Below, piece by piece: positions 4,949 through 64,000 of a stretch of 64,000 nucleotides of DNA. The position numbers and the translations under genes were made by a program. This DNA comes from Burkholderiales bacterium C2 (GTDB taxonomy: Bacteria; Pseudomonadota; Gammaproteobacteria; Burkholderiales; Burkholderiaceae_C). Below the pieces are notes generated by a model, which made no database searches, had not been told where the DNA came from, and saw only the letters and a list, made by a program, of their open reading frames with translations. The stretch spans positions 62,001 to 126,000 of the forward strand of contig SCOI01000018.1 of NCBI GenBank assembly GCA_005503085.1, written 5' to 3'. Each line of letters begins with the position of its first letter. The stretch's first letter is position 1.

Positions 4949-4959
4949 TGTTCGATTAG

Positions 4960-6207
<1,248 letters not shown>

Positions 6208-6229
6208 CGAGCACCTCCAGGAGAGCCAG

Positions 6230-6922
6230 ATGCAATTCAAGCCGGTGCCGGCGGGCGTCTACCCCGCGCTGATCTACCCGCCCTACAAGTCCACGCGCAG
6301 CCGTGGGCCCGCGCAGCCGCCGCTGCGCATCGCGGCGCCGGCAGCGACGACGCAAGGCCTGACCCTGGCCCGCGCGCTGCTGGGCCCGCTCGATGCCGAT
6401 CTGACCCGCCAGGGCGCGGCCGCGCCGCTGGGCGAGAAGATCGTCGTGAGCGGCCGGGTGCTGGACGAGGATGGCCGGCCGGTGCGCGACTCGCTGATCG
6501 AGGTCTGGCAATGCAATTCGGCGGGCCGCTACTGGCACAAGAAGGACCAGCATGCCGCGCCGCTGGACCCCAACTTCTTCGGCCTGGGCAAGCTGATGAC
6601 GGACGGGGAGGGCCGCTACCGCTTCATCACGATCAAGCCGGGGCCCTATCCCTGGGGCAATCACGACAAGGCCTGGCGTCCGGCCCATATCCATTTCTCG
6701 CTGTTCGGCAATGTGATGGCCCAGCGCCTGGTCACGCAGATGTACTTCCCCGCCGACCCGCTGTTCGACCACGACCCGATCTTCCAGAGCATTGCCGATG
6801 CGGAAGCGCGCGGGCGCCTGATCGCCCGCTTCAGCATGGAGGACACGGTCGGCGCCGAGATGCTGGGCTATCGCTTCGACATCGTGCTGCGCGGCAGCGC
6901 TGCCACCCCCTTCGGCCTGTGA
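6230..6922 (+). CDS. pcaH: Protocatechuate 3,4-dioxygenase, beta subunit
   Basis: A 230-residue catalytic subunit of the intradiol ring-cleaving dioxygenase that opens protocatechuate to beta-carboxy-cis,cis-muconate. All four ferric iron ligands are in place: Tyr101 in AGRYWHKKD, Tyr140 in IKPGPYPWG, and His153 and His155 in WRPAHIHF, with the same spacing as the Pseudomonas enzyme. Ribosome site CAGGAGAG precedes the ATG. Lies between pobA and pcaG in one transcription unit; the rest of the beta-ketoadipate pathway is not in the window. Confidence 0.96.
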   Translation: MQFKPVPAGVYPALIYPPYKSTRSRGPAQPPLRIAAPAATTQGLTLARALLGPLDADLTRQGAAAPLGEKIVVSGRVLDEDGRPVRDSLIEVWQCNSAGRYWHKKDQHAAPLDPNFFGLGKLMTDGEGRYRFITIKPGPYPWGNHDKAWRPAHIHFSLFGNVMAQRLVTQMYFPADPLFDHDPIFQSIADAEARGRLIARFSMEDTVGAEMLGYRFDIVLRGSAATPFGL

Positions 6923-54621: not shown

Positions 54622-57281
54622 GTCGGCGCCATCGACACCAGCGCGGCCAGACGGCTTTGCTCGCAGGCATTCTCGGCCTTGCAGACTTCCTGGACCGCGC
54701 GCAGGCTGGCCTGCACGATGGCGGCGGCGTCGACCTCGAAATGCGCGCGCAGCTCGGCGCGCGAGTCGCTGCGGCCAAAGCCGTCGGTGCCCAAGCACAG
54801 ATAGCGCCGCCCCGGCGGCAGATAGGCGCGCACCAGCTCGGGCAGGGCGCGCACATAGTCGCTGGCGGCGATGATGGGGCCGCTGCTGGCGCGCAGCTGC
54901 AGCTCCAGCGCGCTGTCGACGGCCGGCTTCAGGCCCTGGCGCCACAGCCGCTCCTGCGCGGCGCCCTCCCGGGCCAGCTCGATATAGCTGGTGACGCTCC
55001 AGACATCGGCGGCGATGCCGTGCTGCTCTTCCAGCAGCGCCGCCGCCTTCAGCACCTCGCCCATGATGGCGCCGCTGCCGAACAGCTGCACCCGCTGCGG
55101 CAGCGCGGCCGGTCCGCTGCGCAGCCGGTAGATGCCGCGCAGCACGCCGGCACGGTCGGCCTCGGCCAGGCTGGGGTTGACGACGTTCTCATTGGTGACG
55201 GTCAGGTAGTAGAACTCGTCGACCTGCTGCTCCAGCATGCGGCGCATGCCGTGGTCGATGATGAGGGCCAGCTCGCCGGCGAAGGCCGGGTCGTAGGCGC
55301 GGCAGTTCGGCACGGTGGAGGCGAACAGCGGGCTGTGGCCGTCCTGGTGTTGCAGGCCTTCGCCGCCCAGCGTGGTGCGGCCGGCGGTGGCGCCGATCAG
55401 GAAGCCGCGGGCGCGCTGGTCGGCCGCGGCCCAGATCAGGTCGCCGACCCGCTGGAAGCCGAACATGCTGTAGAAGATGTAGAAGGGCAGCATCGCCAGC
55501 CCGTGCGTCGAGTAGCTGGTGGCCGCCGCGGTCCATGACGACAGCGCGCCGGCCTCGCTGATGCCTTCTTCGAGGATCTGCCCGCTCTTGTCCTCGCGGT
55601 AGGCCAGCATCGAGCCGGCGTCCTCGGGCTGGTAGAGCTGGCCGAAGGGGGCGTAGATGCCGACCTGGCGGAACAGGCTGGCCATGCCGAAGGTGCGCGC
55701 CTCGTCGGCGACGATGGGCACGATGCGCGGGCCCAGCCTCTCGTCCTTGATCAGCGCGGCCAGCTGGCGCACAAAGGCCATCGTCGTGCTCATGCTCTTG
55801 CCGTCGGCCTGCAGCGCGAAGCCGGCCGTCTCGGCAAGACCTGGCACCGGCAGCGGCGGCGCCAGCGTGGCGCGGGCCGGCAGAGAGCCGCCGAGCGCCG
55901 CGCGGCGCGTCTGCAGATAGCGCATCTCGGCACTGTCCTCGGCGGGCTTGTAGAACGCCGCCTCGGCCACCTGGGCGTCGCTGAGCGGCAGCGCAAAGCG
56001 CTCGCGAAAGGCCAGCAAATCGTCCGTGCCCAGTTTCTTCTGCTGGTGCGAGGTCATGCGGCCCTGGCCGGCCGTGCCCATGCCATAGCCCTTCATGGTC
56101 TTGGCCAGCACGACGGTGGGCTGGCCGCGATGGGCGCGGGCGCGTGCGAAGGCGGCGTGGATCTTGACCGGGTCATGGCCGCCGCGGCGCAGCCGGTCTA
56201 TGTCCTCGTCGGCCAGGTGGGCGACCAGGGCCTGCAGCTCGGGCGACTGGCTGAAGAAGCTGCGGCGGTTGAAGGCGCCGTCGTTTGCGCTGAGCGTCTG
56301 GAACTCGCCGTCCACGGTGCGCGCGAAGGCCCGCGCGATCGCATGGGTCTCGTCGCGCGCCAGCAGCGCATCCCACTCGGAGCCCCACAGGCATTTGAGG
56401 ACATGCCAGCCGGCGCCGGCGAACAGTGCTTCGAGCTCGTCGACGATGCGGCCATTGCCGCGCACCGGGCCGTCCAGGCGCTGCAGATTGCAGTTGATCA
56501 CGAAGACACAGTTGTCGAGGTTCTCGCGCGCGGCCAGGGTCAGCGCGGCGATCGACTCCGGTTCGTCCATCTCGCCGTCGCCGAAAAAGCCCCAGACCTT
56601 GCGCTGCTCGGTGGCCTGCAGGCCGCGGTCGGCCAGGTAGCGCATGAAGCGGGCCTGGTAGATCGCATTGATCGGGCCTATGCCCATGGACCCGGTCGGG
56701 AACTGCCAGAACTCCGGCATCAGATAGGGGTGTGGGTAGGAGCTGAGCCCCTGGAACCCTTGCTTCTGCGCGCTGAGTTCCTGGCGGTAGTGGCGCAGCG
56801 CGTCTTCGCCGAGCCGGCCCTCCAGAAAGGCGCGCGCATAGACGCCCGGCGCCGAATGCGGCTGGAAGTACACCAGATCGGCCCCCTGCGGCGCCGCAGG
56901 GCCGCGGAAGAAATGCTGGAAGCCCACCTCGAACAGATCGGCCGCCGAGGCATAGCTGGCGATGTGCCCGCCGAGCTCGCCGTGCGCGGCATTGGCGCGT
57001 ACGACCATCGCCAGCGCGTTCCAGCGCAGCATGGCCGAGAGCCGCTGCTCGATGGCCAGGTCGCCGGGGTAGGGCGGCTGCTGGGCCAGCGGCACGCTGT
57101 TCAGATAGGGCGTGACGGCCGCCGGCCGCCAGGGCAGCTGCTGCTGGCGCGCATGCGCCAGCAGGCCGTCCAGCAGGGCGGCCGCGCGTTCGCGGCCTTC
57201 ATGCGGCCCCCAGGCGGCGAGCAGGCCGTCCAGCGCTGCACACCATTCCTGAAGTTCCTCGTCGACATCGGTCGGGTGCAT
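54618..57281 (-). CDS. aceE: Homodimeric 2-oxoacid dehydrogenase E1 (AceE/MdeB-like)
   Basis: An 887-residue thiamine-diphosphate E1 of the homodimeric pyruvate dehydrogenase type. The ThDP motif is WGFFGDGEMDEPESIAALTL. The C-terminal part contains SLFRQVGIYAPFGQLYQPED and TTLGGEGLQHQDGHS, as in AceE. It lies 23 bases after acdS on the same strand, and there are no aceF/lpd genes beside it. ACC deaminase releases 2-oxobutyrate. MdeB of Pseudomonas putida is an AceE-like 2-oxobutyrate dehydrogenase E1 encoded next to a 2-oxobutyrate-producing lyase, so this copy may prefer 2-oxobutyrate (inference). ACAGGAG precedes ATG 57281. Confidence 0.9.
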   Translation of the reverse strand: MHPTDVDEELQEWCAALDGLLAAWGPHEGRERAAALLDGLLAHARQQQLPWRPAAVTPYLNSVPLAQQPPYPGDLAIEQRLSAMLRWNALAMVVRANAAHGELGGHIASYASAADLFEVGFQHFFRGPAAPQGADLVYFQPHSAPGVYARAFLEGRLGEDALRHYRQELSAQKQGFQGLSSYPHPYLMPEFWQFPTGSMGIGPINAIYQARFMRYLADRGLQATEQRKVWGFFGDGEMDEPESIAALTLAARENLDNCVFVINCNLQRLDGPVRGNGRIVDELEALFAGAGWHVLKCLWGSEWDALLARDETHAIARAFARTVDGEFQTLSANDGAFNRRSFFSQSPELQALVAHLADEDIDRLRRGGHDPVKIHAAFARARAHRGQPTVVLAKTMKGYGMGTAGQGRMTSHQQKKLGTDDLLAFRERFALPLSDAQVAEAAFYKPAEDSAEMRYLQTRRAALGGSLPARATLAPPLPVPGLAETAGFALQADGKSMSTTMAFVRQLAALIKDERLGPRIVPIVADEARTFGMASLFRQVGIYAPFGQLYQPEDAGSMLAYREDKSGQILEEGISEAGALSSWTAAATSYSTHGLAMLPFYIFYSMFGFQRVGDLIWAAADQRARGFLIGATAGRTTLGGEGLQHQDGHSPLFASTVPNCRAYDPAFAGELALIIDHGMRRMLEQQVDEFYYLTVTNENVVNPSLAEADRAGVLRGIYRLRSGPAALPQRVQLFGSGAIMGEVLKAAALLEEQHGIAADVWSVTSYIELAREGAAQERLWRQGLKPAVDSALELQLRASSGPIIAASDYVRALPELVRAYLPPGRRYLCLGTDGFGRSDSRAELRAHFEVDAAAIVQASLRAVQEVCKAENACEQSRLAALVSMAPT

Positions 57282-57304
57282 GCGCTGGCTCCTGTCTGCT
57301 GATG

Positions 57305-58321
57305 TCAACCGTTGCGGAAGAGGAAGCTGTAGGCGTTCAATGCGGGGACGCCGCCCAGGTGGGCGTAGAGCACCCGCGAGCCTGCGGGGAACTCGCCCTT
57401 GCGCACCCTATCGATCATTCCCTGCATCGACTTGCCCTCGTAGACCGGGTCGGTCAGCATGCCCTCGGTGCGTGCGCACAGGCGTATCGCTTCCAGCGTG
57501 CCTTCGCTGGGCAGGCCGTACTCGGGGCCGCCGTAGCGGGTGTCCAGCACCACGTCGGCGGCCACAATGGGCCGGCCCAGCTCGACCAGCTCGGCGGTGT
57601 GCTGGGCGATGCGCAGGATCTGTGCATGGGTCTGTGCCGGCTTGGCCGAGGCGTCGATGCCGATCACCTTGTCGGCGCGGCCGTCGGCCGCGAAGCCCAC
57701 CACCATGCCGGCCTGCGTGCTGCCGGTCACCGAGCAGACGACGATGTAGTCGAACTTGAAGCCCAGCTCGGCTTCCTGCGCGCGCACCTCCTCGGCGAAG
57801 CCGACGAAGCCCAGGCCGCCGTAGGGATGCTCGGAGCAGCCGGCCGGGATCGGGAAAGGCTTGCCGCCACGCGCCTTGACATCGTCCATCGCCTGCTGCC
57901 AGCTCGGGCGGATGCCGATGTCGAAGCCGGCCGCGTCCAGGCGCACATCGGCCCCCATGATGCGCGACATCTCGATATTGCCGACCCGGTCGTAGACCGC
58001 GTCCGAGTAGTTGACCCAGTTCTCCTGCACCAGCACGCACTTCATGCCCAGATGGGCGGCGACCGCGGCGACCTGGCGGGTCTGGTTGGACTGGATGCCG
58101 CCGATCGAGACCAGGGTGTCGTAACCGCCAGCAATCGCCTCGGGAATCAGGTACTCCAGCTTGCGGGTCTTGTTGCCGCCGAAGGCCAGGCCGCTATTGC
58201 AGTCCTCGCGCTTGGCATAGAGCTCGACCTCGCCGCCGAGCGCGGCGCTCAGGCGCTTCAGGGGCTGGATGGGCGAGGGGCCGAAGGTCAGCGGGTGGCG
58301 GGGGAAACGTTGCAGATTCAT
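57305..58321 (-). CDS. acdS: 1-aminocyclopropane-1-carboxylate deaminase
   Basis: A 338-residue PLP enzyme that breaks ACC, the plant ethylene precursor, into 2-oxobutyrate and ammonia. Lys51 (FGGNKTRK) binds PLP and Ser78 ([10 protein letters not shown]) is the catalytic nucleophile side residue. Tyr294-Glu295 (DPVYEGKSM) and Leu322 ([12 protein letters not shown]) are the residues that separate true ACC deaminase from D-cysteine desulfhydrase, and all match. Length is exactly that of characterised AcdS. Divergent from acdR with an AT-richer control region. Suggests a plant-associated life style. Confidence 0.95.
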
Positions 58322-58413
58322 GTGAAGACTCCGAGGAGAGAGGGAAGAGCTTGGCTGCGCTGGGAATGTTAGGAAGAATGCCTGTTCACAGGGTTGCAAA
58401 GATTGATGGGATG

Positions 58414-58437
58414 GCAAACTTCTTGCTGACTGTTTGC
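58414..58437. promoter_or_regulatory. Candidate AcdR operator
   Basis: GCAAAC (58414-58419) and GTTTGC (58432-58437) form an inverted repeat with a 12-base spacer in the 150-base gap between acdS and acdR; a related half, TTGCAAAG, lies at 58394-58401. Lrp-type AcdR binds this region in other bacteria; the exact site here is inferred. Confidence 0.5.
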
Positions 58438-58471
58438 TCCTGATGTGGCTTCCTATTGCTGGAGAATTGAA

Positions 58472-58981
58472 TTGAGCACAACAAAAGTTCGTGGCCAGGC
58501 GAAGCTCGCGGCCCCGGACGCGATCGCGCTGGATCGCACCGACAAGACGCTGTTGCGCGCGCTGCAGCGCGACGCCTCGATCTCGAATGTGGCGCTGGCC
58601 GAGAAGGTGCATCTGAGCCCGCCGGCCTGCCTGCGCCGGGTCGAGCGCCTGCGCCGCGCCGGGCTGATACGCGCGACCGTGGCCCTGCTGGACCCGCCGG
58701 CGCTGGATGCCGGCATGCTGGTCATCATCGGCGTGGTGCTGGACCGCTCGACGCCGGAGTCCTTCGCGGCCTTCGAGAAATCCGCCGCCAAGATTTCCGG
58801 CTGCATGGAGTGCCATGTCGTGACCGGCGAGTTCGACTACTTCATGATGCTGCGCACCAAGGACAGCGATAGCTTCAACCGCCTGCATGCCGAGCAGCTG
58901 CTCTATCTGCCGGGGGTGCGGCAGATCCGCAGCTTCATGGTGCTCAAGCAGGTGCTGTCGACGACAGAGATACCCTTGTAG
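58472..58981 (+). CDS. acdR: Lrp/AsnC-family regulator of ACC deaminase
   Basis: A 169-residue Lrp-type regulator. The HTH is [20 protein letters not shown] then [12 protein letters not shown], and the C-terminal RAM-type domain has [17 protein letters not shown]. It is divergent from acdS, as AcdR is in many Proteobacteria. The start is taken as TTG 58472 because GGAGA lies six bases before it; GTG 58445 would add nine residues with no clear ribosome site. Confidence 0.88.
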
Positions 58982-58991
58982 CGCCATATCC

Positions 58992-59033
58992 AGAATAAAA
59001 GTTCTAGACAATAAGTTCTAGAAAAGTTATTCT
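58992..59033. promoter_or_regulatory. 42-bp dyad operator before the blaI-like gene
   Basis: The arms AGAATAA (58992-58998) and TTATTCT (59027-59033) enclose two copies of AAGTTCTAGA (58999-59008 and 59013-59022), each with a TTCTAGA/TCTAGAA core placed symmetrically about the centre. The stretch is AT-rich in a GC-rich genome. It ends 6 bases before the ATG. It differs from the classical TACA-N2-TGTA bla operator but has the right place and symmetry for the BlaI-type dimer. Confidence 0.75.
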
Positions 59034-59039
59034 GAATGC

Positions 59040-59444
59040 ATGGCTCATTCATCCTCACTCCCCAAACCCACCGCCGCCGAGCTGGATCTGCTGCGCGTCA
59101 TCTGGCGCGAAGGGGCTTGCACGGCCCGCCAGGCGCATGAGGCGCTGAAGCTCGAGCGGCCCGAGATCACCGAGGCCAATGTGCTGCGCCAGCTGCAGCT
59201 GATGCACAGCAAGGGCCTGCTGACGCGCGACGAGGGCCAGCGCCCGCAGGTCTATGCGGCCGCCCACGCGCAGCACAAGCTGCAGCAGCAGCTGCTCAAG
59301 GACATGGTCTCCAAGCTCTTCGGCGGCTCCGGCAAGGCCCTGGTGATGGCCGCGCTGAAGACCCAGGTCAACCAGCAGGAGCGCGACGAGATTGCGCAGC
59401 TGCTGAGCCAGGGCGATGCGGCCGGCAAAGGCAAGCGCTCATGA
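59040..59444 (+). CDS. BlaI/MecI/CopY-family transcriptional repressor
   Basis: A 134-residue winged-helix repressor. The DNA-binding part (about residues 8-80) has AAELDLLRVIWREGACTARQ and ITEANVLRQLQLMHSKGLLT; the C-terminal dimer helix (about 85-125) has LLKDMVSKLFGGSGKALVMA. Family members are cleaved by a BlaR1-type metalloprotease when beta-lactam is sensed. The ATG has no clear ribosome site, so leaderless translation is possible. ATGA overlap with the M56 gene and the downstream beta-lactamase support the assignment. Confidence 0.9.
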   Translation: MAHSSSLPKPTAAELDLLRVIWREGACTARQAHEALKLERPEITEANVLRQLQLMHSKGLLTRDEGQRPQVYAAAHAQHKLQQQLLKDMVSKLFGGSGKALVMAALKTQVNQQERDEIAQLLSQGDAAGKGKRS

Positions 59445-61261
59445 GCGGCACGAGCTGGACCCTCTGGGTGCAGCCGCTCAGCGACACCTTGCTGCAGCTG
59501 CTGTGGCAGCTGGGCGTGCTGGGCGGCTTGGCCGCGCTGCTGCTGCATGTGCTGCGCCACAGCGCCGCCCGCCTGCGCTATGCGGTCTGCGCCGTGGCCC
59601 TGTTGCTGAGCCTGCTGCTGGCGGCGCTGCAGTTCGGTACGCGCTGGGCCGAGGCGCAGACCCCGCCGGCCACACCGGCGGCGCAGCCACTCTGGGGCGG
59701 CGGCGCGCTCAAGGCCCAGCGCCACGGCGCCGTGCAGTCACAACAGGTCGAGGAGCCCGATCGCTGGGCGACGCAGACGCCCTGGCGCCAGGGCCTGGCC
59801 TGGGCCTGGTTGCTGGGCGTCGCGCTGATGAGCTTGCGTCTGCTTGCCGGCCTGGCCTGCGTCGCGCGCTGGCGCCGCCGCAGCCGGCCCGCGCCGGCGC
59901 TGTGGCAGACCCGCCTGGATCAGCTGGCCCGCCGCATGGGCCTGGGCCCGTCGGTGGCGCTGCGCTTGCTGCCCGCCGCGGTCGATGTGGCCGCCGGTCC
60001 CTTCACCGTCGGCTGGTGGCGACCGGTCGTGCTGCTGCCGGCCGGCCTGCTGACGGGCCTGCCGGCGCCGCTGCTGGAGGCCTTGCTGGCGCACGAGCTG
60101 GCCCATGTGCGGCGCTGGGACTATCTGGCCCATCTGCTGCAGAAGGTGGTGGAGGCCTTGCTGTTCTTCCACCCCGTCATCTGGTGGCTGTCGCGCCGGC
60201 TGCGGATCGAGCGCGAGCTGGTGGCCGACGCGCTGGCGGCCGAGCAGCTGGGCGCGCCGCGCCAGCTGGCCGAGGCCTTGCAGGCGCTGGCGCTCGGTCC
60301 GCAGGCGCCGGCGCTGGCCGCTGCGGCCCAGGGCGGCGAGCTGGCGCAGCGGGTGCGCGCCCTGGTCCGGCGCGCGCCGCCGGGCGGGGAGGGGCCGCGG
60401 CTGCTGTCCGCGCTGCTCTTGCTGGGCCTGCTGGCCGGCGTGCTGCCGCTGGCCGGCATGCACAACGCGACGGCGCAGGCCGGCTTGGCAAGCGCAGTCC
60501 CTGCCAGCGCCGGCCCTCACTTGCCCGCCGACCTGGCGCTGGCCTCCAGCCATGCGCTGGTGCTGGATGCCGATTCCGGCGAGGTGCTGCTGGCGCGCAA
60601 CGCGCAGCAGGCGGTGCCGATTGCCTCGATCAGCAAGCTGATGACGGCCCTGGTGGTGCTGGACGCGGGGCAGGACCTGCAGCAGCAGCTGAGCGTCTCG
60701 CGCGAGGATGTGCGGGCCAGCCCCTTCAGCAGCGCGTCGCTGCGGCCGGGCCAGCGGCTGAGCCGCGAGGCGGCTCTGACCCTGATGCTGCAGGCCTCCG
60801 ACAACCGCGCCGCCCAGCTGCTGGCGCGCCACTATCCGGGCGGCCTGGCCGCCTTCGAACAGGCCACGCAGGACAAGGCCGGCAGCCTGGGTCTGCAGAC
60901 GGCGGAGTTGCGCCACCCGACCGGCGTGCCGTCCAGCAGCCGGGCCAGCGCCGCCGATGTGGCCCGTCTGCTCGAGGCCGCCGCCAGCGAGCCGCTGATA
61001 CGGCAAGCCGCCGGCGCGGCGCGGGCCCGCGTGCTGGTCGATGGCAAGCCGATCGAATCCCTCCACAGCAACCCGCTGGTCGGCGCCCCCGGCTGGCCCA
61101 TGCTGCTGGCCAAGACCGGCTTCACACAGGCGGCCGGGCGCTGCGTGGCCCTGCAGATGCGCCTGCAGGGGCGGCGTCTGAGCGTGGTCCTGCTGGGGGC
61201 GCCGGACGCCGCGCAGCGCGAGGCCGATCTGCAGCGCATCCGCGCTGCGCTGCAGGGCTGA
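59441..61261 (+). CDS. M56 metallopeptidase (BlaR1-like) fused to a PBP7-type S11 domain
   Basis: A 606-residue membrane protein. Four hydrophobic segments at about 17-38, 45-65, 118-140 and 321-340 match BlaR1 topology. Between the last two lies the M56 protease part with LLAHELAHVRRWDY (H218, E219, H222) and a further acidic motif ERELVAD. After the fourth segment there is an S11 D-Ala-D-Ala peptidase domain (about 362-606) with SISK (Ser396, Lys399), SDN (453-455) and KTG (558-560), all intact. Classical BlaR1 has a class D beta-lactamase-like sensor instead. Inferred role: acylation of Ser396 by a beta-lactam activates the protease to cut the BlaI-type repressor; the domain might also be an active DD-peptidase. 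Confidence 0.88.
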   Translation: MSGTSWTLWVQPLSDTLLQLLWQLGVLGGLAALLLHVLRHSAARLRYAVCAVALLLSLLLAALQFGTRWAEAQTPPATPAAQPLWGGGALKAQRHGAVQSQQVEEPDRWATQTPWRQGLAWAWLLGVALMSLRLLAGLACVARWRRRSRPAPALWQTRLDQLARRMGLGPSVALRLLPAAVDVAAGPFTVGWWRPVVLLPAGLLTGLPAPLLEALLAHELAHVRRWDYLAHLLQKVVEALLFFHPVIWWLSRRLRIERELVADALAAEQLGAPRQLAEALQALALGPQAPALAAAAQGGELAQRVRALVRRAPPGGEGPRLLSALLLLGLLAGVLPLAGMHNATAQAGLASAVPASAGPHLPADLALASSHALVLDADSGEVLLARNAQQAVPIASISKLMTALVVLDAGQDLQQQLSVSREDVRASPFSSASLRPGQRLSREAALTLMLQASDNRAAQLLARHYPGGLAAFEQATQDKAGSLGLQTAELRHPTGVPSSSRASAADVARLLEAAASEPLIRQAAGAARARVLVDGKPIESLHSNPLVGAPGWPMLLAKTGFTQAAGRCVALQMRLQGRRLSVVLLGAPDAAQREADLQRIRAALQG

Positions 61262-61294
61262 GCCAAGAACCTCTATCCCATGGAATCAATACCG

Positions 61295-62221
61295 ATGAAC
61301 ACCCTCTCTCGTCGTCAACTCTTGCTGCAGGCCGGCGCCTCCTCGCTGCTGCTGGGCGGCCTGCCCGGCGTCGCCAATGCCGTGGTGATGGCCCATGCCC
61401 CCTTTGCCACGCTGGAACAGAAGGCCGGCGGCCGGCTCGGCGTGGCCGTGCTGGACTGTGCCGATGGCGCGCTGATCGGCCACCGCTGGCAGGAGCGCTT
61501 TGCGCTGTGCTCCACCTTCAAGCTGCCGCTGGCCGGCGTGGTGCTGCGCGAGGCCGACCAGGGCCGGCTGCAGCTCGATCGGCCGCTGCGCTACGGGCTG
61601 GCCGATATGGTGCCTCATGCACCGGTGACGGGCCGGCATCTGGCCAGCGGCCGCATGAGCATTGCCGCGCTGGCCGAGGCCACGCAGACCACCAGCGACA
61701 ACGTCGCCGCCAATCTGCTGCTGCGCGAGCTCGGCGGCCCGGCCGGCCTGACGGCCAGGCTGCGCGAGCTGGGCGATGGCGAGACCCGGCTGGACCGCTA
61801 CGAGCCGCAGATGAATGTGGTCGATGTGGTCCACGCCGGTGAGCTGAGGGATACCAGCACGCCGCTGGCGATGGCCCGCACGACCGACCGGCTCTTGAAT
61901 TCCGACTGGCTGGCGCCGGCCTCGCGCGAGCGGCTGGCCCAGTGGATGATCGCGACCGACACCGGCCTGAAGCGCCTGCGCGCCGGTTTCCCGGCGGGCT
62001 GGAAGGCCGGCGACAAGACCGGCACCTTCATGGGCCCGGGCGTGGATGACAAGTACAACGATGTCGCGATCGCCTGGCCGCCGGGGCGGCCGCCGCTGAT
62101 CGTGTCGGCCTACTACGAAGGCCCGGGCCGGCACGACCATATGCGCGACCAGGACCAGGCGGTGCTGGCCGAGGTCGGACGGCTGGCGGCGGCCTGGTGG
62201 CTCTCGCGCCAGCCGCGCTGA
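61295..62221 (+). CDS. Class A beta-lactamase with Tat-like signal
   Basis: A 308-residue serine beta-lactamase. Motifs in Ambler terms: S70-T-F-K73 in LCSTFKLPLA (here Ser73), S130-D-N132 in TTSDNVAANL, R164-Y-E166-P-Q-M-N170 in RYEPQMN, and K234-T-G236 in AGDKTGTFM. A Cys sits at Ambler 69, but there is no Cys at 238, so the disulfide of class A carbapenemases is missing. The N-terminus LSRRQLLLQAGASSLLLGG is a twin-arginine-type signal. Start at 61295 gives a normal Tat n-region; ATG 61280 is an alternative. Third gene of the cassette, 33 bases after the sensor gene. Confidence 0.93.
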   Translation: MNTLSRRQLLLQAGASSLLLGGLPGVANAVVMAHAPFATLEQKAGGRLGVAVLDCADGALIGHRWQERFALCSTFKLPLAGVVLREADQGRLQLDRPLRYGLADMVPHAPVTGRHLASGRMSIAALAEATQTTSDNVAANLLLRELGGPAGLTARLRELGDGETRLDRYEPQMNVVDVVHAGELRDTSTPLAMARTTDRLLNSDWLAPASRERLAQWMIATDTGLKRLRAGFPAGWKAGDKTGTFMGPGVDDKYNDVAIAWPPGRPPLIVSAYYEGPGRHDHMRDQDQAVLAEVGRLAAAWWLSRQPR

Positions 62222-62225
62222 ACCC

Positions 62226-63155
62226 TCAGCGCAAGGTCCGGTTGAACAGCGCCAGCGTGCGCGCCCAGGCCTGCTGCGCCGCGCTCGCGTCGTAGCGCGG
62301 CGTGGTGTCGTTGTTGAAACCGTGCTGCGTGCCGGCGTACTTGAAGGCCTCGTGCTTGGTGCCGGCGCTTTTCAGTGCGGCCTCGTAGGCGGGCCAGGCG
62401 GCGTTGATGCGCTCATCGTTCTCGGCAAAGATGATCAGCAGCTCGGCCTTGATCTGGCCCACCTGTTCGGCCGGCGCCGGCGCGCCATAAAAGGCCGCGC
62501 CGGCCTGCAGCTCGGGCAGCCGCGTGGCCAGGAAGTTGACCATGCCGCCGCCATAGCAGAAGCCCACCGCGCCGAGCTTGCCATTGCCACCGGTGACGCC
62601 GCGCGCGAAGCCGGCGGCCGCGACGAAGTCCTCGCGTGTCTTGGCCTGATCGAGCTTGGCGAACTGTTCGCGGGCCTTGTCCTCGTCGCCCGGATAGCCG
62701 CCCAGCGGGAACAGCGCATCGGGCGCGACCGCGATGAAACCATCCAGCGCCAGGCGCCGCGCGATGTCCTCGATATGCGGGTTCAGGCCGCGGTTCTCAT
62801 GAATCACCAGCACCACCGGCAGCGGGCCCGGCGCCTGGGCCGGCCGCGTCACATAGGCGCGCACCTTGCCATAGCCGGCCGGCGACGCGAACTCGACGAA
62901 CTCGGCCTTGACCCGCGCATCGCCCGGCGCCACCTTCTGCGCCTGCGCGAAGTCCGGGCTCAGCGCCGCCAGCAGCGCCGCCGCCGTGGTGCCGCTGGCC
63001 AGCGCGAAGCGGGCCGCCCGGTCCAGAAAGCCGCGGCGGTCGATGTCGCCATGCACGTACTGGTCGAACAGGCACCAGAGCTCGGGGTCGAACTGGCTGG
63101 GGTCGATGACGGGCGCGGCTGCGACGGCTGCTGTTGGCATTGCTTCGTGATTCAT
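62226..63155 (-). CDS. Dienelactone hydrolase family protein, exported
   Basis: A 309-residue alpha/beta hydrolase. The nucleophile Cys is in VGFCYGGGMVNFL, the Glu in VLVIHENRGLNPH, the Asp in FAENDERIN, and the His in GTQHGFNNDT, matching dienelactone hydrolase. Residues about 38-72 hold a Tat-type signal (DIDRRGFLDRAARF), placed after an unusual N-terminal extension. The role is unclear; such proteins are often called carboxymethylenebutenolidase. Converges on the beta-lactamase with 4 bases between stops. Confidence 0.88.
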   Translation of the reverse strand: MNHEAMPTAAVAAAPVIDPSQFDPELWCLFDQYVHGDIDRRGFLDRAARFALASGTTAAALLAALSPDFAQAQKVAPGDARVKAEFVEFASPAGYGKVRAYVTRPAQAPGPLPVVLVIHENRGLNPHIEDIARRLALDGFIAVAPDALFPLGGYPGDEDKAREQFAKLDQAKTREDFVAAAGFARGVTGGNGKLGAVGFCYGGGMVNFLATRLPELQAGAAFYGAPAPAEQVGQIKAELLIIFAENDERINAAWPAYEAALKSAGTKHEAFKYAGTQHGFNNDTTPRYDASAAQQAWARTLALFNRTLR

Positions 63156-63203
63156 GGCTGAGAAACCTCGGCGTGTTGACGACAGGATGGGCGAGGCTGC
63201 CTT

Positions 63204-64000
63204 TTACACCGCCCGGCCGGACGGCGTGAGTCCCGGGGTTTCCCGCAGGCGGCCGGGCGGCAGCAGCGCATCGAGCGGGCTGCGCACGCCTGCGCCACCG
63301 ACCTTGAGCACATGGGTGTAGATCATGGTCGTGGCGACGTCGGCATGGCCCAGCAACTCCTGCACCGTGCGGATGTCGTAGCCGGCCTGCAGCAGATGGG
63401 TCGCGAACGCATGACGCAGGGTGTGCGGCGTGGCCGGTTTGGTGATGCTGGCGGCGACCACTGCCCGTTTGAATGCACGCTGGAAGGTTTGGTCGTACAG
63501 ATGATGCCGCCTGACCACGCCGCTGCGGGGATCGGTGGACAGATGGTCTTGCGGGAAGACCCAGAACCACGCCCAGCTGTGCCCTGCTCTGGGGTACTTG
63601 CACTCCAGTGCATGCGGCATCTCCACGCCGCTCTGGCCGGACGCAGCATCGGCGGCCCAGAGCCGGTGCGCATCAGCGAGCTGGGCGCGCAACTCGGCAT
63701 GCAGGGTCTGCGGCAGCATCACCACGCGGTCCTTGCCGCCCTTGCCCGAGCGCACGATCAACGCCTGGTGCTCGAAGTCCAGATCCTTCACGCGCAGCTG
63801 CAGGGCCTCGCTGATGCGCAGCCCGGCGCCATAGAGCAGCTTGGCCAACAGCAGATGTTCGCTGCCGCCGTCGGCAGCAGCCACCGCCGCCATCTGCGCG
63901 AACAAGGCCTGCACTTCTTCAACCGACAAGACCACCGGCAGGCGTCGCTGCGTCTGCGGCCGGCCGATCTCGGCCATCCAGGGCAGGCTCAGGCCCAGCA
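63204..64000 (-). CDS. intI: Integron integrase, C-terminal part (cut by window edge)
   Basis: About 265 residues of a tyrosine recombinase; the N-terminus is beyond position 64000. Catalytic residues seen are Arg in [14 protein letters not shown], the [12 protein letters not shown] box, and the nucleophile Tyr in [13 protein letters not shown]. The extra segment [20 protein letters not shown] with [14 protein letters not shown] is the IntI-specific patch absent from other tyrosine recombinases. [13 protein letters not shown] ending is also typical of IntI. Since intI reads to the left, attI and the cassette array are expected to the right of the window. No attC-like repeats were seen inside the window. 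Confidence 0.93.

Follow-up and report, generated by a model that had tools for sequence, protein, structure and literature searches.

A BlaR1-like membrane receptor with a PBP7-type DD-peptidase domain in the place of the sensor, and its probable role in beta-lactamase induction in Burkholderiales

Introduction

In BlaR1 and MecR1 the sensor is a class D beta-lactamase-like domain, a feature that defines the family. Here we describe a locus of Burkholderiales bacterium C2 (GenBank assembly GCA_005503085.1, contig SCOI01000018.1), lying in a stretch of 64,000 nucleotides that we call the window, which encodes a BlaR1-like receptor with a DD-peptidase domain of family S11 as its sensor. The locus shares with the BlaR1/MecR1 and BlaI/MecI systems of S. 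aureus and B. licheniformis an N-terminal membrane transducer, an M56 zinc protease with its zinc-ligand spacing, a C-terminal extracytoplasmic penicillin-recognizing fold, and a BlaI-family repressor and a beta-lactamase in the gene cluster. Unlike those systems, it has an S11 sensor, a Gram-negative host, apparently a residue other than tyrosine at the equivalent of BlaR1 Tyr261, an operator made of a 14-bp TCTAGA repeat, and a next gene that varies by clade. Acylation of the BlaR1 sensor switches on its protease (PMC9834060, PMC3356374).

The sensor has the fold and catalytic motifs (SxxK, SxN and KTG) of PBP7, also known as PbpG. PBP7 is a free-standing exported protein, whereas the S11 domain described here follows a membrane M56 module within one fused protein. 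BlaR1/MecR1-class D genes of the same bacterial order lie beside bifunctional class C-D beta-lactamases in Duganella, Janthinobacterium and Massilia (PMC5967600, passages only). Those genes resemble ours in that a BlaR1/MecR1-type gene adjoins a beta-lactamase, but the passages describe products in which the class D domain is complete and the BlaR1/MecR1 domains are either complete or incomplete, and mention no S11 domain. THIN-B, a subclass B3 metallo-beta-lactamase of Janthinobacterium, is known as an enzyme, and its family is found next to the receptor in 25/25 called loci of genus g562, which is taken as Janthinobacterium. THIN-B genes have been reported in J. tructae SNU WT3 (PMC7922066, passages only). 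The terms blaR and blaI are absent from the main text of those THIN-B-related papers that were searched by term.

No M56-S11 receptor was found in full-text literature searches, which were judged by titles and abstract openings and had most subscription papers outside their reach. The parts are known, and the M56-S11 combination is a novel form of the BlaI/BlaR1 system. The receptor should not be classed as BlaR1 because another domain stands in for the class D sensor and the score lies below the NCBIfam cut-off, nor as PBP7 because the score lies below the cut-off of model PRK11669. It probably works like BlaR1. We put at roughly three in four the probability that the locus is a beta-lactam-inducible class A beta-lactamase operon of the BlaI/BlaR1-like kind with a PBP7-type DD-peptidase as sensor.

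Results

Architecture of the receptor

The window is positions 62001-126000 of contig C9 in genome G000 (5.8 Mb), and positions are given in window numbering. The receptor and its parts are as follows.

59441-61261, + strand: BlaR1-like receptor with S11 DD-peptidase sensor, 606 amino acids, ATG start (PF05569 and PF00768, structure models, fold matches)
59489-59554, + strand: membrane segment 1, residues 17-38 (hydropathy; model helix 4-37)
59582-59638, + strand: membrane segment 2, residues 48-66 (hydropathy; model helix 43-73)
59810-59866, + strand: membrane segment 3, residues 124-142 (hydropathy; model helix 113-147)
60092-60106, + strand: HELAH zinc-protease motif, residues 218-222, with third ligand E259 (conserved in 64/64)
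60401-60457, + strand: membrane segment 4, residues 321-339 (hydropathy; model helix 318-344)
60536-61204, + strand: S11 (PBP7-type) sensor domain, residues 366-588, predicted periplasmic (PF00768; Z 33.8 to 6azi)
60626-60637, + strand: SISK, with catalytic Ser396 and Lys399 (S and K in 64/64)
60797-60805, + strand: SDN, residues 453-455 (S453 and N455; S and N in 64/64)
61112-61120, + strand: KTG, residues 558-560 (64/64)

An earlier note on this DNA, made from the letters alone, had described these coordinates, this frame and these motifs, four membrane segments with HELAH between the third and the fourth, and a complete PBP7-type domain in the sensor's place. All of this held. The note had also proposed a domain search of the two halves, and both halves score above the Pfam cut-offs. 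M56 (PF05569) matches residues 98-306 (E 8e-23, 81.5 bits against a cut-off of 31) and Peptidase_S11 (PF00768) matches residues 366-588 (E 7.5e-37, 127.5 bits against 27.6). Two weaker hydropathy peaks (196-214 and 391-409, mean 1.61-1.62) lie within folded domains. Between residues 142 and 318 lysine and arginine number 22 and aspartate and glutamate 13, which matches the expectation for a cytoplasmic region. The four membrane segments and this charge pattern predict a cytoplasmic protease and a periplasmic S11 domain. A full-length AlphaFold2 model built with 24 homologues as input has a mean predicted local distance difference test score (pLDDT) of 83.4 and a predicted template modeling score (pTM) of 0.54; a separate model of the N-terminal 345 residues reached pLDDT 84.4 and pTM 0.81.

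The gene is a single uninterrupted frame across both domains. The same open reading frame (ORF) occurs at 89% identity in the sister genome G001 (Paucibacter sp. PLA-PC-4), 64 called homologues keep an open frame through the two domains, and the fusion is also found in single-contig genomes such as G008 and G1009. The frameshift between the halves that the earlier note had allowed for was not found, and because of the sister ORF and the open homologues an assembly artefact at this locus is very unlikely. The homologue in G1298 (L198) has an in-frame TAG and was excluded from counts.

The protease half resembles BlaR1

By sequence profile the closest solved relative is S. aureus BlaR1 (E 1.7e-12). 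BlaR1 structure 8exs_A is the best fold match of the N-terminal model (Z 18.5, root-mean-square deviation 3.8 A over 250 residues), with model residues 13-299 aligned onto chain residues 1-292. All five Foldseek matches of this model at E <=0.001 are BlaR1 entries, and the whole-protein model also finds 8exs_A (E 2.2e-10, rank 22). The zinc ligands of BlaR1 are H201, H205 and E242, with supporting residues D210 and D246 (PMC9834060, passages only). In the profile alignment H201, H205, E242, D210 and D246 correspond to H218, H222, E259, D227 and D263 of the receptor, so that the spacing from HExxH to the third ligand is equal. H218, E219, H222, D227, E259 and D263 are identical in 64/64 fusion homologues; the equivalent of the near-invariant BlaR1 Asp210, D227, is thus present in every one.

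M56 proteins lacking an S11 domain were seen in L034 (5783-7588, -) and L128 (3830-6332, -). Their M56 part is related to the protease half of the receptor, and by eye their C-termini are long, repetitive and coiled-coil-like. The L128 gene comes after a blaI-type gene, with a similar CTAGA-type box upstream.

The sensor half is a PBP7-type DD-peptidase

The S11 half of the model superimposes best on PBP7-type 6azi (Z 33.8, root-mean-square deviation 1.8 A over 241 residues). 6azi and 6muq, also of PBP7 type, are the nearest solved structures, and close fold matches include the beta-lactam-bound DD-peptidase-type structures 5zqb_A and 5zqc_B. Its top NCBIfam model is the PBP7-type endopeptidase PRK11669, at 176.1 bits against an equivalog cut-off of 294. 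A further, separate PBP7-like gene of G000 (G000:C41) shows 43% identity across the S11 part.

The residue following KTG is F in 5/6 class A-linked sensors, S in 25/26 B3-linked sensors and Y in 27/32 others. As this residue tracks clades, it is a lead and not a test. In the clade of G000, residues common to the other sensors and to PbpG are altered at several positions, for example 488, 502 and 571. These changes, and the long branches of the clade, are as expected if ligand preference had shifted.

Repressor, beta-lactamase and operator

The receptor gene lies between a repressor gene and a beta-lactamase gene, the two neighbors that the earlier note had named.

59040-59444, + strand: BlaI-type repressor gene (PF03965 Penicillinase_R, 62.4 bits against a cut-off of 22.6, E 6.5e-17)
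61280-62221, + strand: class A beta-lactamase gene (NF033103, 279.6 bits against a cut-off of 200)
58989-59036, no strand assigned: operator directly upstream of blaI, three overlapping TCTAGA-N8-TCTAGA-like units at 14 bp spacing
59005-59033, + strand: sigma-70-like promoter inside the operator, TAGACA-17 nt-TATTCT, with no other promoter-like match in 58900-62400

The stop codon of blaI overlaps the start codon of the receptor gene as ATGA (59441-59444). The start candidates of bla (61280, 61295 and 61322) lie 18 to 60 nucleotides (nt) behind the receptor. Allowing up to two mismatches, the window holds three operator units, against 0.28 expected in shuffled sequence. At the same stringency at least one unit was found upstream of blaI in 64/64 fusion loci, and 62/64 have one with at most one mismatch. 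No unit was found within 400 bases downstream of the receptor in the 64 loci.

Twelve genomes were searched whole for the exact 20-mer unit. It was found upstream of blaI in 12/12, with a single extra site overall, in G001. In G000 it occurs only at this locus, and G1009 has two exact sites, one for each of its two receptor operons. Sites with one mismatch were no commoner than a reversed control pattern in 9/12 genomes; they were commoner in G000, G979 and G989, and one of those in G000 is the neighboring unit of the same operator. The sequence around the extra site of G001 (C55:307193, about 7194 in L149) is palindromic, and none of the genes called nearby resembles blaI, the receptor or bla.

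Six bases separate the -10 box from the blaI ATG in the window. A similar promoter arrangement was found in 59/64 loci with a loose pattern (TAGA.., 17 nt, TAT.CT, with variants allowed), which in a small number of loci sits at a neighboring operator unit. In 42 of these 59 the blaI ATG is six or seven bases past the -10 box, an arrangement not seen in the TonB-linked loci of family f8. Judged by this short distance, the blaI transcript is probably leaderless in the window, and the pattern suggests that leaderless transcription is conserved across many homologous loci.

About 1 kb from bla, past a dienelactone-hydrolase-type gene, is an integron integrase gene (63204-64000, -; NF011946, 531 bits against a cut-off of 435) that runs about 310 bases beyond the window (L041 15205-16311). 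GTTRRRY sites were no commoner than chance in L041; cassette arrays further out were not searched for. There was no Rfam match in window positions 55000-64000 and no match to the anti-phage library.

The genes next to the receptor

The earlier note had suggested a survey of how often the fusion occurs beside BlaI and bla genes. We surveyed 64 loci: 19 from family f1, 39 from f8 and G261 of f8, two from f22, two contigs of metagenome-assembled genomes (MAGs) and one plasmid. The set is without L198 and without nine of the 50 full-length f8 fusions. Starts given by the home-made gene caller are approximate, and the annotated blaI of L028 was missed by it. A blaI gene lies directly upstream of the receptor in 64/64 loci. 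The next gene encodes a class A beta-lactamase in six, a subclass B3 beta-lactamase in 26, a TonB-dependent receptor in 17, a D-amino-acid-oxidase-like protein in seven and an esterase in four. The four other loci have a lyase gene of the adenylosuccinate-lyase kind (L100), a sensor-kinase-type gene 218 nt away (L032), an opposite-strand neighbor (L109) and a contig end (L022).

Class A genes come next in G000, G001, the second copy of G1009, a Paraburkholderia caribensis plasmid, G1122 and G1320. THIN-type B3 genes do so in the 25 g562 loci and in one Oxalobacteraceae MAG. Among the 39 called f8 loci the next gene follows the genus: B3 in 25/25 of g562, TonB receptor in 12/12 of g138 and class A in 2/2 of g132. 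Most of these assignments come from blastp against a single typed member of each kind. In addition, four B3 and four class A proteins score above NCBIfam cut-offs, 7/7 oxidases match Pfam DAO, three TonB receptors and one esterase match Pfam, and the annotation of the P. caribensis enzyme gives it as class A. Same-strand gaps, measured to the called starts, range from -4 to 107 nt for both beta-lactamase classes and the oxidases, 63-146 for esterases and 76-205 for TonB receptors, suggesting that operon membership is most plausible for beta-lactamases and oxidases and least certain for TonB receptors.

Class A and B3 genes above the curated cut-offs were searched for in thirteen genomes each. 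G000, G001 and G1009 have one class A gene each, and in all three it is the linked one; further class A-like fragments below the cut-off lie near C1:3776264 in G1009. G1122 and G1320 have two class A genes each, one of them linked. Seven g562 genomes have three B3 genes and one has two, with one linked in 8/8; the other five genomes of the B3 search have none. Among 14 control genomes each beta-lactamase family was above cut-off in one.

Several neighbors have features of their own. The oxidase-like genes are L105 (3580-4740, -), L102, L104, L106, L107, L108 and L110. Residues 45-107 of the L105 oxidase match residues 320-382 of the D-amino-acid oxidase 7ct4, and residues 103-325 match 18-241, so that the protein looks circularly permuted. 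By eye the L105, L108 and L110 oxidases start with a twin-arginine-type stretch. The G008 esterase resembles the siderophore esterases Bes, PfeE and IroE and has an exported-protein-like start. In L118 a stand-alone S11 gene whose product is close to the sensors in sequence (4950-6742, +) is followed directly by an esterase 72% identical to that of G008, and no blaI- or M56-like gene is among the genes shown there.

Distribution and phylogeny

Counts of the fusion are lower bounds, with mostly only the best three or four candidates scored per genome. The window protein as query matched at least 5/399 genomes of the order at 1e-54, four over the full length and one in the M56 part only. Family-level counts come from an alignment-based search and were made by hand among the matches listed. 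Full-length fusions are present in at least 18/299 genomes of the window's family (19 loci), with two further genomes cut by contig ends, in at least 50/343 genomes of family f8, with one more cut by a contig end, and in at least 2/10 genomes of family f22. Some g562 genomes, for example G1240 and G1306, have no full-length match among the matches listed. The phylum sample of 200 genomes has the full-length fusion in at least one, G000 itself, and G432 matches in the M56 part only. The class-wide sample of 369 genomes at 1e-65 returned G000 and otherwise S11-only or M56-only proteins among the matches listed. No relative of the receptor was found on viral contigs. A g562 receptor gave two matches at 1e-40 among 72,556 plasmid records, and query coverage exceeds 80% only in the P. 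caribensis plasmid. This plasmid carries the operon, with the receptor annotated merely as an M56 family metallopeptidase. G1009 carries two receptor operons, each with its own operator, one followed by an oxidase gene (L105) and the other by the class A gene (L113). In G1003 and G791, where an esterase comes next, the fusion looks split, but the breaks coincide with contig ends; these cases were excluded from the 64-locus counts.

A maximum-likelihood tree was built from 51 fusions, with 13 near-duplicate B3-linked rows omitted. The class A-linked rows form two clades kept apart by well supported branches, one of G000, G001 and the second copy of G1009, the other of P. caribensis, G1122 and G1320. 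A third clade holds the B3-linked rows and also L022, where the contig stops short of the next gene. Sister to the G000 clade is the TonB-linked receptor of G882, followed by G014 and G979, also TonB-linked. We take this placement of neighbors to mean that outputs were exchanged as the receptors evolved. Branches are long for several rows, those of the G000 clade among them, which leaves the finer placements uncertain.

A second tree, of S11 domains, was built without most f8 loci. In it 44 S11-only matches, taken as PbpG and not typed individually, form one fully supported group. Sensors and stand-alone S11 relatives lie on the other side of a fully supported branch. Several of the stand-alone relatives fall among the sensors, and one of them (L119) starts, by eye, with a segment like membrane segment 4, suggesting that some are receptors that have lost the protease. 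In G872 (C88) the receptor profile match continues past an in-frame TAA upstream of the stand-alone S11 gene of L117 (4836-5741, -); this stretch is perhaps the remnant of a former fusion.

Discussion

From the architecture, the intact active sites, the operator with its promoter-like site, the gene order and the recurrent beta-lactamase linkage we infer the remaining steps, in which the sensor is acylated, the signal is relayed, BlaI is cut and transcription carries on into bla. Without drug, BlaI would occupy the TCTAGA-repeat operator and cover the only promoter-like site of the operon, keeping blaI, the receptor and bla jointly off. A beta-lactam in the periplasm would acylate Ser396. Since PBP-type enzymes are usually slow to release the acyl group, the sensor would stay loaded. 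Its loaded state would be relayed by the membrane segments to the cytoplasmic M56 zinc protease, and the protease would inactivate BlaI; the operon would then be transcribed, with read-through into bla. We consider it likely that beta-lactams are sensed in this way, by acylation of Ser396 and a relay through the protease to BlaI.

The earlier note had proposed that beta-lactams are sensed here by a genuine penicillin-binding fold. The BlaR1 matches of the protease half, the 6azi fold of the sensor and the presence of beta-lactamases in three clades support this proposal, with acylation and induction as its inferred part. Given the several thousand genes per genome, a beta-lactamase next to the receptor in three clades is not a chance neighborhood. 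Moreover, two unrelated beta-lactamase folds behind one receptor type favor beta-lactam sensing by acylation of the S11 serine.

Several observations weigh against this reading. The same-strand next gene is not a beta-lactamase in 28/64 loci, and four more loci have no informative neighbor. Many beta-lactamase genes in receptor-bearing genomes are not under the receptor's visible operator: the second class A gene of G1122 and of G1320 is unlinked, G1339 and G1196 have one unlinked class A gene each, and g562 genomes carry one or two unlinked B3 genes. The class A gene of G958 is about 350 kb from its receptor, which has an oxidase gene next to it. G882, G014, G008, G989 and G908 carry the receptor and have no class A gene above cut-off; other classes were not searched there. 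The receptor scores 39.7 bits against the NCBIfam blaR1_generic equivalog cut-off of 400. Finally, BlaR1 Tyr261 is near-invariant, and induction in B. licheniformis was abolished when alanine replaced it (PMC9834060, passages only). The equivalent position 278, assigned by a profile alignment at low identity, is tyrosine in 0/64 homologues. Since the flanking A277, A279 and L280 are invariant in the alignments, the difference from BlaR1 is taken as probably real.

The 28 loci with a TonB receptor, D-amino-acid oxidase or esterase next make a peptidoglycan-type ligand possible, such as the muropeptide signal that the earlier note had named as its alternative. BlaI of B. licheniformis is also a target of a peptidoglycan dipeptide (PMC3305447), suggesting that drug and cell-wall signals may both count here. 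A broader proposal, which we regard as tentative and doubtful in this joint form, is that S11-M56 proteins serve Gram-negative bacteria as a general-purpose receptor frame, whose working DD-peptidase site signals that it has been acylated, by drug or by a peptidoglycan or D-amino-acid substrate, to outputs that have been swapped behind one operator. These outputs would be class A beta-lactamases (acquired twice), B3 enzymes, TonB receptors, siderophore-esterase-like enzymes and a D-amino-acid oxidase that is apparently circularly permuted and exported by the twin-arginine route.

The strongest rival, though unlikely, holds that what the S11 domain senses is not the drug but peptidoglycan peptides, whether as D-Ala-D-X ends, muropeptides or free D-amino acids, so that beta-lactams would induce indirectly via wall damage and the outputs would answer wall or D-amino-acid signals. 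S11 enzymes naturally bind peptidoglycan peptides, the active-site residues are retained in 64/64, and exported D-amino-acid-oxidase-like proteins and TonB receptors come next in other clades. A peptidoglycan dipeptide binds BlaI/MecI in Gram-positives (PMC3305447). This account must be set against beta-lactamases of two unrelated folds behind the receptor in three separate clades, and it presumes that the other next genes belong to the regulon. We think it improbable that the protein acts chiefly as an anchored DD-endopeptidase that controls its own turnover through the M56 part, with incidental blaI and bla neighbors. Stand-alone S11 relatives do exist, and some appear from the tree and the L119 start to be fusion-derived, but blaI lies just upstream in 64/64 loci with a conserved operator and G000 retains its separate PBP7-like gene. 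Chance or an assembly artefact, to which the in-frame stop in G1298 lends some color but the window locus none, is hardly credible given the 89%-identical sister ORF, the single-contig carriers G008 and G1009 and the 64 open homologues.

Beta-lactam sensing through the S11 serine thus remains the reading we prefer. An enzyme of the penicillin-target type has apparently been recruited as a sensor, in place of the beta-lactamase-like domain of known BlaR1-type receptors. If this is true, the receptor is a candidate for a control of inducible beta-lactamases, independent of AmpR-type regulation, in a large, mostly environmental order, and it would offer a simple route to asking how the active site of a penicillin-binding protein becomes a signal. 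With its varied next genes, the receptor can also reveal whether bacteria sense peptidoglycan peptides via a DD-peptidase active site.

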